Source: an uncultured Bacteroidia bacterium (GTDB taxonomy: Bacteria; Bacteroidota; Bacteroidia; Bacteroidales; UBA932). Taken from it: a stretch of 63,754 nucleotides of DNA. The stretch spans positions 1 through 63,754 of the forward strand of contig CACYWN010000020.1 in assembly GCA_902778105.1 (NCBI GenBank), read 5' to 3'. The position numbers and the translations under genes are program-made. Positions 53,050-60,346 of this stretch are shown here, one piece after another. The notes under the pieces are model-generated. The model had not been told where the DNA came from and ran no database searches. It was given only the letters and a program-made list of their open reading frames with translations. Positions within the stretch are counted from its first letter, which is position 1. Each line of letters starts with the position of its first letter.

Positions 53050-53083
53050 CATACTTATTGACAAACGTTTCAACTAACTTATA

Positions 53084-53857
53084 ATGGCTAATTTCCTGAC
53101 CTCCTCCATCGGCAAGAAGTTCATCCAGAGCGTATCCGGCGCTTTTCTCGTAATCTTCCTGCTCCTGCACGGCACCATTAATTTCTTCTCCGTCATCGAC
53201 TCCCTGAAGGGTCAGTTTGGCAAAGTGGCCGAAGATACCGTCCGTTTCTCCGAAGGTGACGGCTGGTTCCAGCTGGGCTGCGACTTCATGTCCACCCCGG
53301 TGATTGACATCATGGTTCCGATCCTGGCCCTGGGTGTCCTCATCCACATCATCTATGGATGCTGGCTCAGCTACGAGAACCTCAAAAAACGTGGCGGCAT
53401 GAAGCGTTATGAGGTCGCTTCCAAGGCGAAGAACGATTCCTGGTCCGCCAAGAACATGGCCGTCCTGGGCGTTGTCATCCTGGGCCTGCTCGCCTTCCAT
53501 CTCACCCACTTCTGGGCCAAGATGCAGCTCCGCGAATTCATGGGCAGCGAGGCTGAGAATCCGTATCTGCTGCTGCTCAACACCTTCCGTCACTGGTGGG
53601 TCCTTGCCATCTACGTGGTGTGGTTCGTCGCCATCTGGCTCCACCTCAACCACGGTTTCTGGTCCATGTTCCAGACCATCGGCTGGAACAACAAGAAGTG
53701 GCTGCCCCGCCTCAAGGTCATCGGCGTCATCGTGAGCACCTTGATCGTCCTCCTGTTCCTGTGCACCGCCGTCAACACCTTCGTCGAGGCCCATTACGTG
53801 ACCAAGTCGGCTCAGTATGTGCAGCCCCTGCTGGAGCAGATCGCCGCGCTGAAATAA
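53084..53857 (+). CDS. sdhC: Succinate dehydrogenase/fumarate reductase cytochrome b subunit
   Basis: 257 residues with five membrane helices, the di-heme Bacteroidota type. Heme-ligand histidines are in FLLLHGTINFF, GVLIHIIYG, LAFHLTHFW and WLHLNHGFW. It anchors the flavoprotein and iron-sulfur subunits and passes electrons to or from menaquinone. The expected sdhA and sdhB genes are not next to it: only nine bases follow before the sequence changes into the trp attenuator promoter region. The other subunits must be encoded elsewhere in the genome, or the operon has been rearranged here. Confidence 0.92.
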   Translation: MANFLTSSIGKKFIQSVSGAFLVIFLLLHGTINFFSVIDSLKGQFGKVAEDTVRFSEGDGWFQLGCDFMSTPVIDIMVPILALGVLIHIIYGCWLSYENLKKRGGMKRYEVASKAKNDSWSAKNMAVLGVVILGLLAFHLTHFWAKMQLREFMGSEAENPYLLLLNTFRHWWVLAIYVVWFVAIWLHLNHGFWSMFQTIGWNNKKWLPRLKVIGVIVSTLIVLLFLCTAVNTFVEAHYVTKSAQYVQPLLEQIAALK

Positions 53858-53913: not shown

Positions 53914-53970
53914 ATGAGAACGAACATGGTCAATAGCTTTTGGTGGCGCACTTGCAATTCCGCATTGTAA
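53914..53970 (+). CDS. trpL: trp operon-type leader peptide (MRTNMVNSFWWRTCNSAL)
   Basis: An 18-residue open frame with two consecutive Trp codons (TGG TGG at 53941-53946) directly behind the promoter and ending 41 bases before a strong terminator. The Trp codons precede a segment (53946-53957) that can pair with 53965-53975, which includes the leader stop codon. That second segment (53966-53973, TGTAAGTC) is also perfectly complementary to 54019-54026 (GACTTACA) inside the terminator. This is the layout of ribosome-mediated attenuation: stalling at Trp codons frees the antiterminator, and reaching the stop codon masks it. The unit would express trpB2 only when charged tRNA-Trp is scarce. Confidence 0.88.
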   Translation: MRTNMVNSFWWRTCNSAL

Positions 53971-54011
53971 GTCGCATCGCCGTAGGTATAGGAGACCGTG
54001 AAAAGATAAAG

Positions 54012-54039
54012 GCGCGCTGACTTACAGCGCGCTTTTTTT
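54012..54039 (+). terminator. Attenuator terminator before trpB2
   Basis: GCGCGCTG and CAGCGCGC pair perfectly (8 bp) around ACTTA, followed by seven T. The antiterminator sequence GACTTACA overlaps the loop and both stem edges. Confidence 0.92.
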
Positions 54040-54078
54040 GTGCCGAAATCAATTGTCAAACACTTAACAAATAACACC

Positions 54079-55543: not shown

Positions 55544-56110
55544 ATGTTACCGAAAGCGAAAGAAATTGTGGATGCCGCCGACCTCAAGATGCAGGATGCG
55601 GTGGATTTCCTGGAGGAAGACCTCAAGAATTACCGCGTAGGCAAGGCCACGCCGGCGATCTTCAACGGCGTGACGGTAGACTACTACGGGACGGTCACCC
55701 CGTTGAACCAGGTGGCGTCCGTGACGACCCCCGATGCGAAGACCATCGCCATCCAGCCCTGGGAGCGCAGCATGATCGGCAAGATCGAGAAGGCCATCCT
55801 GGATGCCAACGTGGGCCTGACCCCGTCCAACAACGGCGAAATCATCCGCTGCGTGGTGCCCGCCCTCACCGAGGAGCGCCGCCGCGAGCTGATCAAGAAG
55901 GCCAAGGCGCAGGGTGAGACCACGAAGGTGACGGTGCGCAACGCCCGCCGCGACGGCATCGACCTCCTGAAGAAGGCCCAGAAGAACGATGGCCTGTCCG
56001 AGGACGGTGAGAAGGATGGCGAGGATGAGCTCCAGAAAGTGACCGACAAGCACATCAAGGCCGTCGATGCGATCATCGCCGCCAAGGAGAAAGAGATCCT
56101 GACCGTGTAG
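55544..56110 (+). CDS. frr: Ribosome recycling factor
   Basis: 188 residues, standard length. NYRVGKATPAIFNGVTVDYYG, IAIQPWERSMIGKIEKAI, LTEERRRELIKKAK and VRNARRDGIDLLKKAQ are canonical RRF segments of the three-helix tail and cap domain. With EF-G it splits post-termination ribosomes. It has its own promoter between two attenuated biosynthetic units. Confidence 0.97.
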   Translation: MLPKAKEIVDAADLKMQDAVDFLEEDLKNYRVGKATPAIFNGVTVDYYGTVTPLNQVASVTTPDAKTIAIQPWERSMIGKIEKAILDANVGLTPSNNGEIIRCVVPALTEERRRELIKKAKAQGETTKVTVRNARRDGIDLLKKAQKNDGLSEDGEKDGEDELQKVTDKHIKAVDAIIAAKEKEILTV

Positions 56111-56136
56111 TTTCGGGATTTTATTGCGGTCCGGTA

Positions 56137-56166
56137 TTGGATTGTAAATTTTTTTATTTACCTTTG
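56137..56166 (+). promoter_or_regulatory. Promoter of the phe/tyr operon
   Basis: TTG at 56137-56139, 19 bases, TACCTTTG at 56159-56166 (perfect). The leader peptide ATG is 17 bases on. Confidence 0.75.
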
Positions 56167-56183
56167 CCGAAACGAACTTGACG

Positions 56184-56237
56184 ATGATGCGATTTTACGG
56201 TTTCGACTTTATCTATCTCTATTATCAGAACAGATAA
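56184..56237 (+). CDS. Aromatic leader peptide (MMRFYGFDFIYLYYQNR)
   Basis: A 17-residue open frame in which seven of the eleven residues from position 4 to 14 are Phe or Tyr (3 Phe, 4 Tyr). It lies between a perfect promoter and a terminator and precedes the operon that makes both amino acids. CTATTATC (56219-56226, over the last Tyr codons) pairs perfectly with GATAATAG (56233-56240, over the stop codon). CCGGAC (56241-56246) can pair with GTCCGG (56288-56293) in the terminator stem, the candidate antiterminator. Stalling on Phe or Tyr codons should favour read-through. A second ATG at 56187 is an alternative start. Confidence 0.85.
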   Translation: MMRFYGFDFIYLYYQNR

Positions 56238-56281
56238 TAGCCGGACGCCGTATCATCCAGACAAAGGTTGAAGTATATTGT

Positions 56282-56314
56282 TGGGCTGTCCGGAAAAGGA
56301 TAGCCCATTTTTTT
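56282..56314 (+). terminator. Attenuator terminator before pheA
   Basis: TGGGCTGTCC (56282-56291) pairs with GGATAGCCCA (56298-56307) with one G-U pair, loop GGAAAA, followed by seven T. The pheA ATG is ten bases further on. Confidence 0.92.
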
Positions 56315-56324
56315 GCGCCGGACC

Positions 56325-57143
56325 ATGAAAAAAGTTGCGATTTTGGGACGTCGGGGCAGTTTCCACGAGGAAGCCGCCCTGGCCTTCTATCAGGATATTC
56401 CGCTGGAGCTGAAGGGCTTTGACAGTTTTGAAAAGATGCTGGCAGCCTACGATTCGGCGGATGTCGACGCCGTCGTCATCGCCGTTGAGAATACGCTCTC
56501 CGGGGGGCTTGTCCGGAATCTGGAACTGATCCATTCCGGCGGTTACCAGGTTGTCGGCGAGGTGCATATCCCCATCCATCAGTACCTGATGGCGTTGCCC
56601 GGCGAGTCCCTGGAATCCATCCAGGAAGTCCGTTCCCATGAAATGGCCCTTTATCAGACCCGTGCGTTCCTCGAGAAGCATTTTCCCGGGATACCCCAGA
56701 CCCAGACGTCCAGTACGGTCGCGGCCGTACAGGAAATCGCTTCGGGTCAGCTGAAAGGAGTGGCGGCCGTGGCCTCCCGGCTGGCCGCCAAGGAATACGG
56801 GCTGGAAATCCTGGCCCGGGAAATCGAGTCTTTCAAGGAAAACAGGACCCGCTTTTTCGTGCTGGACCGGTATTTCCGGCCGGAGAAGGCGGACAAGGCT
56901 TCCTGGTGCTTCACGCTGCCGCACAAGGCCGGTGCCCTGGCCCAGATCCTGACCATCCTGTCCTTCTATGAGATGAACCTGACCCGCATCCAGTCGCTGC
57001 CCATCCCGGGTTGTCCGTGGGAGTATTTCTTCTATGCCGACATCCGTTTCGAGGATACCGTCCGCTACCGGCAGGCGCTGTCGGCGGTACGGCCCCTCCT
57101 GGCCGACCTGGATATCATGGGTATCTACAAGGGAAGTTTTTGA
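56325..57143 (+). CDS. pheA: Prephenate dehydratase
   Basis: 272 residues from the ATG at 56325 (MKKVAILGRRGSFHEEAA); an in-frame TTG at 56313 lies in the terminator T-run and is rejected. The PDT domain shows GSFHEEAALAF, IAVENTLSGGLVRNLELI and KGVAAVASRLAA. It is followed by a regulatory ACT domain (about 195-272, KAGALAQILTILSFYEMNLT). It makes phenylpyruvate from prephenate, and the ACT domain suggests feedback by Phe. No chorismate mutase is fused here; that activity is at the end of the operon. First gene of the attenuated operon. Confidence 0.95.
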   Translation: MKKVAILGRRGSFHEEAALAFYQDIPLELKGFDSFEKMLAAYDSADVDAVVIAVENTLSGGLVRNLELIHSGGYQVVGEVHIPIHQYLMALPGESLESIQEVRSHEMALYQTRAFLEKHFPGIPQTQTSSTVAAVQEIASGQLKGVAAVASRLAAKEYGLEILAREIESFKENRTRFFVLDRYFRPEKADKASWCFTLPHKAGALAQILTILSFYEMNLTRIQSLPIPGCPWEYFFYADIRFEDTVRYRQALSAVRPLLADLDIMGIYKGSF

Positions 57144-57164: not shown

Positions 57165-58364
57165 ATGAGTGAATCGAGAGTGTCCAAAAGAATGACCCGC
57201 CTGTCCCCCTCCATGACCTTCGCCATGAACGCGTTGAGCAATGAATTGAAGGCCAAGGGGATCGATGTTGTGAACATGAGTCTGGGGGAGCCCGACTTCA
57301 ATACCCCGGAGCACGTGAAAGAAGCCGCCTGTGCCGCCCTGGACGCGGATTATACGCACTATACCCCCGTGCCCGGCAGCCTCTCCCTGAAGGAGGCGAT
57401 CATCGGCAAACTGCAGCGGGAAAACGGCCTGACGTACGGACCGTCGGAAATCCTGGTGTCGAACGGCGCCAAGCAGAGCCTGTGCAATGCGGTCATGGCC
57501 CTGGTCGACGAAGGGGACGAGGTGATCATACCGTCGCCTTACTGGGTGAGCTATCCGCAGATGGTGCTCCTCGCGGGCGGGGTCCCGGTCCATGTCGACA
57601 CCGGCATCGACCAGGGATACAAGATGACCCCCGCGCAGCTGGAAAAGGCGATCACCCCGCGGACCCGGATGCTCATCCTCTGTTCGCCCAGCAATCCGTC
57701 GGGTGCCGTGTATTCGAAGGAAGAACTGGAAGCCTTGTCCGCCGTAATCCTTTCCCACGAAGGGCTGCTGGTCCTTTCCGACGAGATCTATGAGCACCTG
57801 AACTATGTGGGTGCCCATGCCTCTATCGCATCCTGCCCGGGAATGCGGGAGCGTACCATCGTGGTCAACGGCGTATCCAAGGCTTATGCGATGACCGGCT
57901 GGCGGATCGGTTTCCTGGCCGCTCCGAAATGGATCGTTTCCGCTTGCAACATGCTGCAGGGGCAGTATACCAGCGGTCCTTGTTCCATCAGCCAGAAAGC
58001 GGCGGAAGCAGCCTGGAACGGCCCTCAGACCTGTGTCGAGGAGATGCGGCAGGCCTTCGAGCGCAGAAGGAACCTGCTGGTTGGGCTGCTTCGCGAGATT
58101 CCCGGCCTGGAAGTGGCCGTTCCCGAAGGAGCCTTCTACCTGTTCCCCAGGTGCTCTTCCTATTTCGGGAAGACGGACGGGACGCGGGTGATCAGGACGT
58201 CCACCGACCTGGCGATGTATCTGCTGGAAGTCGGGCATGTGGCCACCGTGGGCGGCGATGCGTTCGGCGCTCCGGATTATATCCGGCTCTCCTACGCGAC
58301 CTCCGAGGAGAACATCGTGGAAGCCGCGAAGCGGATGGCGGAAGCCCTTTCACGCTTGAAGTGA
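57165..58364 (+). CDS. Class I aminotransferase (aspartate/aromatic type)
   Basis: 399 residues, fold-type I PLP enzyme: NMSLGEPDFNTPEHV, SNGAKQSLCNAVMALVDEGD, CSPSNPSGAVYSKEEL, SDEIYEHLNYVG, and the PLP Lys239 in VNGVSKAYAMTGWRIGF. It resembles the subgroup I-gamma aspartate aminotransferases such as those acting on prephenate or phenylpyruvate. Lying between pheA and tyrA, it most likely transaminates phenylpyruvate and 4-hydroxyphenylpyruvate (or prephenate) to finish Phe and Tyr. Confidence 0.93.
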   Translation: MSESRVSKRMTRLSPSMTFAMNALSNELKAKGIDVVNMSLGEPDFNTPEHVKEAACAALDADYTHYTPVPGSLSLKEAIIGKLQRENGLTYGPSEILVSNGAKQSLCNAVMALVDEGDEVIIPSPYWVSYPQMVLLAGGVPVHVDTGIDQGYKMTPAQLEKAITPRTRMLILCSPSNPSGAVYSKEELEALSAVILSHEGLLVLSDEIYEHLNYVGAHASIASCPGMRERTIVVNGVSKAYAMTGWRIGFLAAPKWIVSACNMLQGQYTSGPCSISQKAAEAAWNGPQTCVEEMRQAFERRRNLLVGLLREIPGLEVAVPEGAFYLFPRCSSYFGKTDGTRVIRTSTDLAMYLLEVGHVATVGGDAFGAPDYIRLSYATSEENIVEAAKRMAEALSRLK

Positions 58365-58371
58365 TCCCGTG

Positions 58372-59238
58372 ATGGAAATGGAAAGAACGATAGGGATCGT
58401 GGGGCTCGGCCTGATCGGCGGGTCCCTGGCCGTGGACCTGCGCGCACGCGGCTATGCCTCCCGCTTCATCGGAACGGACAAGAATCCGCTGAATGCGGAA
58501 GCGGCCTGCCGGCTGGGCCTGGTGGACCGCCTGGTCTCTTTGGAGGAATGCATCGGGGAAAGCGACATCATCGTGGTCTCCGTCCCTGTGAGCGCGGCGG
58601 CGGGAATCATCCATACGGTGCTGGACACGTTCCGGGACAAGGGGTACACGGACAAGGTCGTGATGGATGTCTGTTCCACCAAGTCCCAGATCGCGGAACG
58701 GCTCAAGTACCATCCCTGCCGCACGCGGTATGTGGCCACCCACCCGATGGCCGGTACCGAGCACAGCGGCCCCTGGGCGGCCCTGCCGGGGCTTTTTGAC
58801 GCCCGCGCCTGCATCATCGCCGACCAGGACGAGTCCGACCCTGCCGCCGTCCGTACGGTGGAGGAACTGTACCGGACGCTGAACATGCGGATCGTGTATA
58901 TGACTTCGGATTCCCACGACGTGCATACGGCGTTCGTTTCGCACCTTTCCCACGTCACCTCCTTCGCCCTGGCCCTCACGGTCCTGGACAAGGAGCGCGA
59001 CGAAAAACACATCTTCGACCTGGCTTCCGGCGGTTTTTCCTCGACGGTGCGTCTGGCGAAGTCGAACGCCGACATGTGGGTCCCCATCTTCATGCAGAAC
59101 CGCGACAACCTCCTCCACGTGGTGGACGCCTATGTCGACAAGATGCAGGAATTCCGGGAGGCGATCGAAAACTACGACGAAGACAAGGTCCGGGCGCTCA
59201 TCGACGAGGCGAACCGGATCAAGAAGATCATCCGATAA
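58372..59238 (+). CDS. tyrA: Prephenate dehydrogenase
   Basis: 288 residues. NAD-binding IGIVGLGLIGGSLAVDL, then VVSVPVSAAAGI, VMDVCSTKSQI and the substrate His region ATHPMAGTEHSGPWAA and SDSHDVHTAFVSHLSH. It oxidatively decarboxylates prephenate to 4-hydroxyphenylpyruvate. ATG 58372 is chosen over the overlapping GTG at 58369. It sits seven bases after the aminotransferase and seven before the DAHP synthase gene. Confidence 0.95.
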   Translation: MEMERTIGIVGLGLIGGSLAVDLRARGYASRFIGTDKNPLNAEAACRLGLVDRLVSLEECIGESDIIVVSVPVSAAAGIIHTVLDTFRDKGYTDKVVMDVCSTKSQIAERLKYHPCRTRYVATHPMAGTEHSGPWAALPGLFDARACIIADQDESDPAAVRTVEELYRTLNMRIVYMTSDSHDVHTAFVSHLSHVTSFALALTVLDKERDEKHIFDLASGGFSSTVRLAKSNADMWVPIFMQNRDNLLHVVDAYVDKMQEFREAIENYDEDKVRALIDEANRIKKIIR

Positions 59239-59245
59239 CGATAAT

Positions 59246-60346
59246 ATGGCAAAGACACTGGACATCGTCCCCGTCGGTGAATGGGGATTCTTCACGCTCC
59301 CGCGGCCGATGGTGATCGCGGGTCCGTGCAGCGCGGAAAGCGAGGAGCAGGTACTGGAAACGGCGCGCGGCCTCGCGGCCTGGGGCATCCACATGTTCCG
59401 GGCGGGCATCTGGAAGCCCCGCACGCATCCGGGCAGCTTCGAAGGCGTGGGTACCCCCGGCCTCAAATGGCTGAAGAAGGTCAAGGAGAAGACCGGCATG
59501 AAGGTCTGCACCGAAGTGGCGAACGAAAAGCACGTGTACGAGTGCCTCAAGTACGGCGTGGACATGCTCTGGATCGGCGCCCGCACGAGCGCGAACCCCT
59601 TCCTGATGCAGGAGATCGCCGATGCGCTCCAGGATACGGACATCCCGGTCCTGGTAAAGAATCCCGTCAATCCGGACCTGGACCTGTGGATCGGCGCCCT
59701 GGAGCGCCTGAACCGAGCCGGCGTCCGGAAGCTCGGCGTCATCCACCGCGGTTTTTCCGCGATGGGCAGCCAGCCCTACCGCAACACGCCGGGCTGGCAG
59801 TTCGCCGTCGAACTCCGCACCCGCTATCCGGATCTCCCCGTCTTCGCCGACCCGTCCCATATGGGAGGTGACCGGAAATACCTGCAGGAACTGTCCCAGC
59901 GGGCGATGGACCTGGGTTTCGAGGGCCTGATGGTCGAGTCGCACTGCAATCCGGCCGTCGCCCTGTCCGACGCGAAGCAGCAGCTTGTCCCCTCGGAACT
60001 TCAGACGCTCATCGAAAGCCTTCTCATCCGGGAGAAGGATTCCGGCGACGAGGACTACCGCGCCGGCATCGACCAGCTCCGTTCGCGGATCGACTACATC
60101 GACGAAGACCTGCTCAAGGAGTTAGGCGCCCGGATGGAGGTGAGCCGGAAGATCGGCGCCTACAAGCGCGACCACAACGTGGCCATCGTCCAGACTTCCC
60201 GCTGGGACCAGGTCCTGGAGGGGGTGAAAGAAAAAGCCCGTGCGTACGGGCTTTCGGAGAAATTCATCGAAGACGTGTTCAACGCCATCCACGAAGAATC
60301 CATCAGGATTCAGAACGGAGTCCTCTCAGCAGGCCCAGAAGCGTAG
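59246..60346 (+). CDS. Bifunctional DAHP synthase/chorismate mutase
   Basis: 366 residues from the ATG at 59246. Residues 1-265 are a type I-beta DAHP synthase (PMVIAGPCSAESEEQV, FRAGIWKPRTHPGSFEGVG, LWIGARTSANPF, VIHRGFS and FADPSHMGGDR). Residues about 275-366 are an AroQ chorismate mutase (LRSRIDYIDEDLLKELGARM, IGAYKRDHNVAIVQTSRWDQ). One polypeptide thus supplies the first shikimate step and the first Phe/Tyr-specific step, as in many Bacteroidetes and Bacillus. It is the last gene of the attenuated operon. Its 3' end overlaps lpxK on the other strand by 44 bases. Confidence 0.95.
   Translation: MAKTLDIVPVGEWGFFTLPRPMVIAGPCSAESEEQVLETARGLAAWGIHMFRAGIWKPRTHPGSFEGVGTPGLKWLKKVKEKTGMKVCTEVANEKHVYECLKYGVDMLWIGARTSANPFLMQEIADALQDTDIPVLVKNPVNPDLDLWIGALERLNRAGVRKLGVIHRGFSAMGSQPYRNTPGWQFAVELRTRYPDLPVFADPSHMGGDRKYLQELSQRAMDLGFEGLMVESHCNPAVALSDAKQQLVPSELQTLIESLLIREKDSGDEDYRAGIDQLRSRIDYIDEDLLKELGARMEVSRKIGAYKRDHNVAIVQTSRWDQVLEGVKEKARAYGLSEKFIEDVFNAIHEESIRIQNGVLSAGPEA

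Follow-up and report, generated by a model that had tools for sequence, protein, structure and literature searches.

In Escherichia coli, the prephenate dehydratase gene pheA is preceded by the leader pheL, which is rich in an amino acid of the pathway (its codons are mainly Phe) and is followed by alternative antiterminator and terminator helices. Leaders that combine codons for several amino acids made by one operon are also found in E. coli, thrL being a mixed Thr/Ile leader and ilvL a mixed Ile/Val/Leu leader. An attenuator ahead of aroF in Corynebacterium glutamicum, aroR-aroF, was reportedly described by Neshat and colleagues in 2014. The aroR leader has Phe and Tyr codons (Phe-Tyr-Phe) before an aromatic-pathway operon, and in the passages of PMC11802643 that deal with it, read-through responds to Phe limitation, and Tyr is reported to be without effect.

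Attenuators of Bacteroidota get only brief mention in the literature we found. A structured 5' element lies upstream of pheA in Flavobacteriaceae, and strong clues for leader-peptide attenuation before amino-acid biosynthesis operons are given for Flavobacterium psychrophilum (both from the main-text portions of PMC9723704). That element shares its phylum and its gene with the one described here, and its leader sequence, Phe/Tyr content and any link to the gene content of the operon are not given in those portions of the main text (PMC9723704). Leader-like small ORFs are mentioned for Bacteroides thetaiotaomicron in the relevant part of PMC7366714.

The locus analysed here lies in a 63,754-nt stretch of DNA from an uncultured Bacteroidia bacterium (hereafter, the window). 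A gap of 214 nt separates the end of frr (56110) from the start of pheA (56325), and the gap is followed by four genes on the + strand:

56325..57143, + strand: pheA, prephenate dehydratase (PF00800, E 4.5e-49)
57165..58364, + strand: class I/II aminotransferase (PF00155, E 1e-71)
58372..59238, + strand: tyrA, prephenate dehydrogenase (PF02153 and PF20463; NF006307 over its cut-off)
59246..60346, + strand: aroF/CM, DAHP synthase fused to chorismate mutase (PF00793 and PF01817)

Pfam and NCBIfam searches thus confirmed the operon content that an earlier note, made from the letters alone, had read at this locus. For the aminotransferase, the top NCBIfam model was aspartate transaminase, with a score under its cut-off. 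The closest named relatives, whose PheA is 95–97% identical, are uncultured Bacteroidales. No Rfam family matched the window above its gathering score, and positions 56100-56340 had no match up to E = 1.

The following elements were recognized between frr and pheA:

56136..56166, + strand: Bacteroidetes-type promoter, called from the sequence (ATTG 56136-56139, 19-nt spacer, TACCTTTG 56159-56166)
56187..56237, + strand: leader ORF of 16 codons, MRFYGFDFIYLYYQNR, called from the sequence and the alignment, with TAA and directly after it TAG
56196..56252, + strand: hairpin 1:2, with an outer helix of TACGG 56196-56200 and CCGTA 56248-56252 plus the 8-bp tip (RNAalifold, pair counts)
56219-56226 with 56233-56240, + strand: the 8-bp hairpin tip, CTATTATC with GATAATAG, perfectly paired at the 3' end of the leader
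56241..56249, + strand: region 2, CCGGACGCC, the predicted 5' strand of the antiterminator (stall folding; core paired in 100% of 8 distinct sequences)
56284..56293, + strand: region 3, GGC-U-GUCCGG, common to the antiterminator and the terminator (pair counts, stall folding)
56282..56314, + strand: intrinsic terminator 3:4, a 10-bp stem (56282-56291 with 56298-56307) and seven T (56308-56314)

The leader reads ATG ATG CGA TTT TAC ... AGA TAA and holds three Phe and four Tyr codons, as the earlier note had counted, so that by the Pfam and NCBIfam gene assignments the amino acids that it counts are those made by the downstream operon. Its length had been put at 17 residues, which includes an extra in-frame ATG at 56184, one codon before the leader start; this first ATG occurs in only two of nine aligned near sequences (the window and L002), and the start that is conserved lies at the second ATG (56187), so the peptide has 16 residues. 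The frame is free of indels across the nine sequences, eight of which are distinct. Compared with pheL-pheA, whose leader is mainly Phe and stands before pheA, the leader here combines Phe with Tyr and stands before a four-gene Phe/Tyr operon in Bacteroidia. It has seven such codons where aroR has Phe-Tyr-Phe before an operon with a DAHP synthase gene, and in relatives the Tyr content of the leader tracks tyrA (see below). The mixed leaders thrL and ilvL belong to other pathways and another phylum.

The promoter had been called perfect. Its -7 box, TACCTTTG, does match TAnnTTTG, which we take to be the Bacteroidetes consensus, while the upstream box is merely ATTG. TTGG and TACCTTTG are retained in all eight leader-bearing near relatives (L002-L009), and at 117 of 136 loci TAnnTTTG occurs no more than 90 nt from the start of the leader, compared with 9.0 in mononucleotide shuffles.

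The region 56175-56315 folds with a z-score of -4.25 against 200 shuffles, and from the alignment alone RNAalifold recovers the terminator and both parts of 1:2, its outer helix and its 8-bp tip. The perfect 8-bp hairpin noted before is real, and it forms the tip of the larger 1:2 hairpin, in which CCGG is included; the 10-bp terminator with its seven T is present as first read. In the named structure 96.9% of alignment cells pair, compared with 31–46% when the partners are slid. One pair each in the outer 1:2 helix, the tip and the terminator has changed on both sides, and these three two-sided changes in 1:2 plus 3:4 are a modest excess over the 1.2 seen in shuffles, 25 of 500 of which reach the same value. 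The pairing of CCGGAC (56241-56246) with GTCCGG (56288-56293) also held up, though not as a helix of 6 bp: by folding, the antiterminator is longer, with 9 bp between CCGGACGCC (56241-56249) and GGC-U-GUCCGG (56284-56293) and a single U bulged. Its core has no covariation support among the 8 distinct sequences, in which five of seven pairs are invariant and none changed on both sides.

To model ribosome stalling, the window transcript was folded up to region 3, with a 12-nt ribosome mask from the A-site codon. The probability of the 2:3 pairing was 1.00 at Phe3, Tyr4, Phe6 and Phe8, 0.86, 0.88 and 0.89 at Tyr10, Tyr12 and Tyr13, and 0.00 with the ribosome at the stop codon; masks of 10 and 14 nt again gave 0.86–1.00 at the Phe/Tyr codons and 0.00 at the stop. 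Folding thus predicts a mutually exclusive antiterminator that is freed by a stall and masked at the stop codon. Stalls at the remaining codons of the range 2–15 also freed 2:3 (P at least 0.66 in three runs), and because the fold releases 2:3 at these codons too, the amino-acid specificity would be set by the codons present and not by the fold.

A looser measure, the pairing of the 5' arm of the terminator with anything upstream, was applied to 134 loci and averaged 0.78 with the ribosome stalled at Phe codons, 0.76 at Tyr codons, 0.34 in the stop state and 0.62 with no ribosome. Tyr stalls exceeded the stop state by over 0.2 in 106 of the 134 loci; the window itself showed little contrast by this measure (0.73 for stalls vs 0.68 at the stop). 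The complete terminator was favoured at equilibrium in the three states tried (P 0.95–0.98), and the untranslated window RNA prefers 2:3 at equilibrium (P 0.97), so the switch must be kinetic. Since the untranslated RNA is predicted to fold into 2:3, the 1:2 hairpin is not clearly a protector.

On this basis, transcription would begin just upstream of the 16-codon leader. With ample Phe and Tyr, the ribosome would reach the stop codon and mask region 2 (56241-56249), and region 3 would then pair with region 4 as the terminator, keeping the operon off. When charged tRNA-Phe or tRNA-Tyr is scarce, the ribosome would stall at one of the seven Phe/Tyr codons and leave region 2 free, 2:3 would form before region 4 is transcribed, and polymerase would read through into pheA-aminotransferase-tyrA-aroF/CM. 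Sequence and comparison show the leader, the alternative helices, the terminator, the operon, their conservation and the tracking of tyrA and aroF by Tyr content; from these we infer the switching and its timing, and that a shortage of Tyr alone would probably suffice for it.

The second leader-peptide attenuator that had been reported close by looks like a real trp attenuator, given the stall model and the Trp-Trp leader of relatives. It comprises:

53914-53970: leader with Trp-Trp, MRTNMVNSFWWRTCNSAL, upstream of a TrpB-like gene
54012-54032: hairpin and then a T run, after the MRTNMVNSFWWRTCNSAL leader

Within this attenuator (53914-54040), GTAAGTC (53967-53973) pairs with a stretch of the terminator hairpin, GACTTAC (54019-54025). 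In the stall model, the antiterminator forms only with the ribosome on or close to the Trp codons (P 1.00 on each of the two, 0.00 at start and stop), and a Trp-Trp leader within 250 nt was found in three of the five near relatives whose locus holds the TrpB-like gene. Further upstream, positions 53058-53085 match the sigma-70 consensus at 12 of 12 positions (TTGACA, 16 nt, TATAAT), which is unusual given the TAnnTTTG boxes for which the phylum is known.

The conservation of the pheA leader was profiled using PheA relatives. Three overlapping genome sets contributed: the genus, with relatives in 76 of 101 genomes, the family (58 of 149) and the order (139 of 295). Named contigs added 11 loci, and a subset of all matches was fetched. 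From 277 loci one fragment (L012) was omitted, and the remaining 276 gave 200 with a distinct pheA start and more than 120 nt upstream. Setting aside 16 divergent PheA-like rows left 184 pheA orthologues. A leader was defined as an ORF with at least six Phe plus Tyr in 12 residues within 350 nt upstream of pheA.

Such a Phe/Tyr-rich leader stands ahead of 137 of the 184 distinct orthologues in the order. Across all 200 upstream regions, 138 had a leader; dinucleotide shuffles gave 8.05 on average, and the antisense strand gave 13. Outside the order, 58 more genomes of the class were searched; 15 gave a PheA match, and nine of these had the leader, each with a terminator. The leader frame is therefore conserved among orthologues, one of the two points on which the earlier note had said that its reading could be refuted. 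A terminator was found between leader and pheA at 134 of the 137 loci, compared with 6 and 12 of 137 in two spacer shuffles.

The element is common, not universal. Forty-seven of the 184 orthologues fell under the leader threshold, an upper bound for the 350 nt scanned, and in at least one genome (G374) a candidate Phe/Tyr ORF lies further upstream, past that distance. Two close relatives (L010 and L011) have no Phe/Tyr leader in the 350 nt scanned, and their PheA identity of 75–78% suggests a recent loss. A scan of the same length likewise showed no Phe/Tyr leader for genus-mate pheA orthologues at GC-rich loci such as L198-L203. Upstream GC was at least 0.50 for 29 of the 42 orthologues with fewer than five Phe plus Tyr, whereas the median for leader-bearing loci was 0.34. 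The divergent PheA-like group (L123-L137 and L157; 15 loci from the genus and one from the family) has 28–32% identity and many open frames near 370 aa. None of its 16 members had a terminator in the last 200 nt, and only one reached six Phe plus Tyr. This divergent gene may replace the usual pheA.

To relate the Tyr codons to operon content, we used 142 leaders with at least five Phe plus Tyr in 12 residues, omitting 11 with short downstream DNA; the window's own row was among those omitted, as its fetched locus ended early. Regression was performed on 127 rows (at least six Phe plus Tyr, context known) with a PheA tree built by FastTree. Leaders with tyrA downstream (n = 105) had on average 4.88 Phe and 4.01 Tyr, those with aroF and without tyrA (n = 15) 5.67 and 2.93, and those with neither gene (n = 7, from four genera) 6.71 and 1.14. 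The last are nearly Phe-only, for example MITINNSFFFFFFRSDPEKGL and MTRFFTHFFFFFTQQ.

In the phylogenetic regression (n = 127), the presence of tyrA added 2.91 to the Tyr count (p = 1.1e-8) and that of aroF only added 2.48 (p = 7e-6), whereas the change in the Phe count was not significant in either case (-1.07, p = 0.15, and -0.55, p = 0.49). A Mann-Whitney test on the Tyr fraction (p 3.5e-6) was superseded by these phylogeny-corrected tests, because the rows are kin. The stricter sign tests on independent pairs were borderline (median p 0.03–0.18). When leaders with neither gene were compared with the rest (8 pairs), a Tyr share of at least one third gave 5.7 pairs in the expected direction and 0 in the opposite one (median p 0.031), and at least two Tyr gave 3.9 to 0 (p 0.125). 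For tyrA alone (15 pairs), at least two Tyr gave 5.4 to 0 (p 0.0625) and the Tyr share 6.3 to 1.8 (p 0.18). Judged from the leader sequences, Tyr content follows tyrA and aroF in the operon, while Phe content is without significant change. This comparison of operon content is the strongest evidence that the Tyr codons matter.

Base composition was considered as a source of the Tyr codons and rejected. When the ORF was chosen by Phe alone, the same ORF was obtained at 128 of the 137 loci, and such ORFs averaged 16.1% Tyr. The leaders as first chosen had 24.3% Phe and 17.9% Tyr, while the two shifted frames had 1.7% and 3.1% Tyr; the contrast between Phe and Tyr counts likewise rules out a composition artefact.

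We also inspected genomes in which tyrA is separate from pheA. Of 20 chosen genomes, 16 had a tyrA match. We followed the region upstream of tyrA in ten where it lies away from pheA; among the remaining six loci, three adjoin pheA, and the other three matched weakly and had no candidate leader within the stretch scanned. Of the ten detached tyrA genes, five (G257, G277, G164, G208 and, with two in tandem, G484) have their own leader with 3 to 6 Tyr plus a terminator. Comparing the lone pheA leader with the detached tyrA leader gave seven Phe and no Tyr vs four and six (G257), six and none vs five and three (G277), five and one vs five and four (G164), and four and one vs three and five as well as three and six (G484). 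The pheA leader of G208 is ambiguous, with two candidates of five Phe and two Tyr or four Phe and two Tyr. The other five detached tyrA operons show no leader: none was detected in the upstream scan of G219 and G229, and none was seen in G133 and G190, where tyrA is last in a run of other genes; in G513 the upstream region of tyrA stops at the contig edge. In one genome (L299:183-375), two tandem leaders containing Phe, Tyr and Trp, with one terminator each, lie upstream of an aminotransferase-tyrA pair.

The Tyr codons could be neutral filler, UAU being one base from UUU, or could at most slow the ribosome, so that the leader would sense Phe only, in keeping with the mainly Phe codons of pheL in E. 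coli. The account of aroR in the relevant part of PMC11802643, in which a Phe-Tyr-Phe leader answers Phe limitation and not Tyr availability, is consistent with this, as are the borderline independent-pair tests. However, the Tyr count is higher by 2.9 codons with tyrA in the operon while Phe shows no significant change; in some genomes a tyrA located elsewhere has a Tyr-containing leader and the lone pheA a Phe-rich one; and in the folding model Tyr-codon stalls in the window free region 2 much as Phe stalls do. We regard Phe-only sensing as improbable.

Still less credible is that the hairpin merely ends transcription coming from frr or shields the pheA promoter, with the short ORF being non-regulatory. 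Although frr ends just upstream (56110), and a promoter and terminator alone would look alike, the promoter sits upstream of the terminator, and conservation of the Phe/Tyr-rich frame holds in the order and extends to 9 of 15 loci from the rest of the class. Moreover, leader and terminator co-occur: under a fixed rule (dG at most -8 within the last 200 nt), a terminator was present at 134 of 137 loci with a leader, two of five at the margin and six of 42 without one, and a plain upstream terminator was rejected on this ground. Action of the leader peptide in trans, or via nascent-chain arrest, in place of codon-specific stalling would be compatible with a fold model that is not codon-specific, and a trans-acting attenuator peptide, peTrpL, has been described (PMC7298713). 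The wide variation between genera in leader length and in the residues other than Phe and Tyr argues against an arrest motif, and we consider this explanation very unlikely as well. We have high confidence that the element is a ribosome-mediated transcription attenuator of the classic trpL/pheL type that reads the charging of tRNA-Phe and tRNA-Tyr. Of five defining features of this class that were examined, four are present, the antiterminator by folding only, while the 1:2 hairpin is conserved yet not clearly a protector. The earlier proposal of a mixed Phe/Tyr leader attenuator controlling a joint Phe-Tyr operon is supported by the conserved frame and by a Tyr content that tracks tyrA and aroF.

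We found no report of a mixed Phe/Tyr pheA leader in Bacteroidales in the open literature searched, and an older prediction may exist. What is novel relative to that literature is that leaders of mixed Phe/Tyr composition are widespread and that their composition depends on the content of the operon. Across Bacteroidia, we somewhat favour the view that the pheA leader is a two-amino-acid sensor on which both shortages act and whose codon composition evolves together with the gene content of the operon, the Tyr codons being lost where pheA stands alone and reappearing in a separate leader when tyrA moves. If this is true, leader composition records which amino acids an operon serves, and the regulatory input of the operon would be readable from its leader. 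The Phe-only and mixed leaders would then be a natural experiment that makes dual sensing by one leader directly testable, and the finding offers a widespread, codon-readable control of Phe and Tyr synthesis in Bacteroidia.
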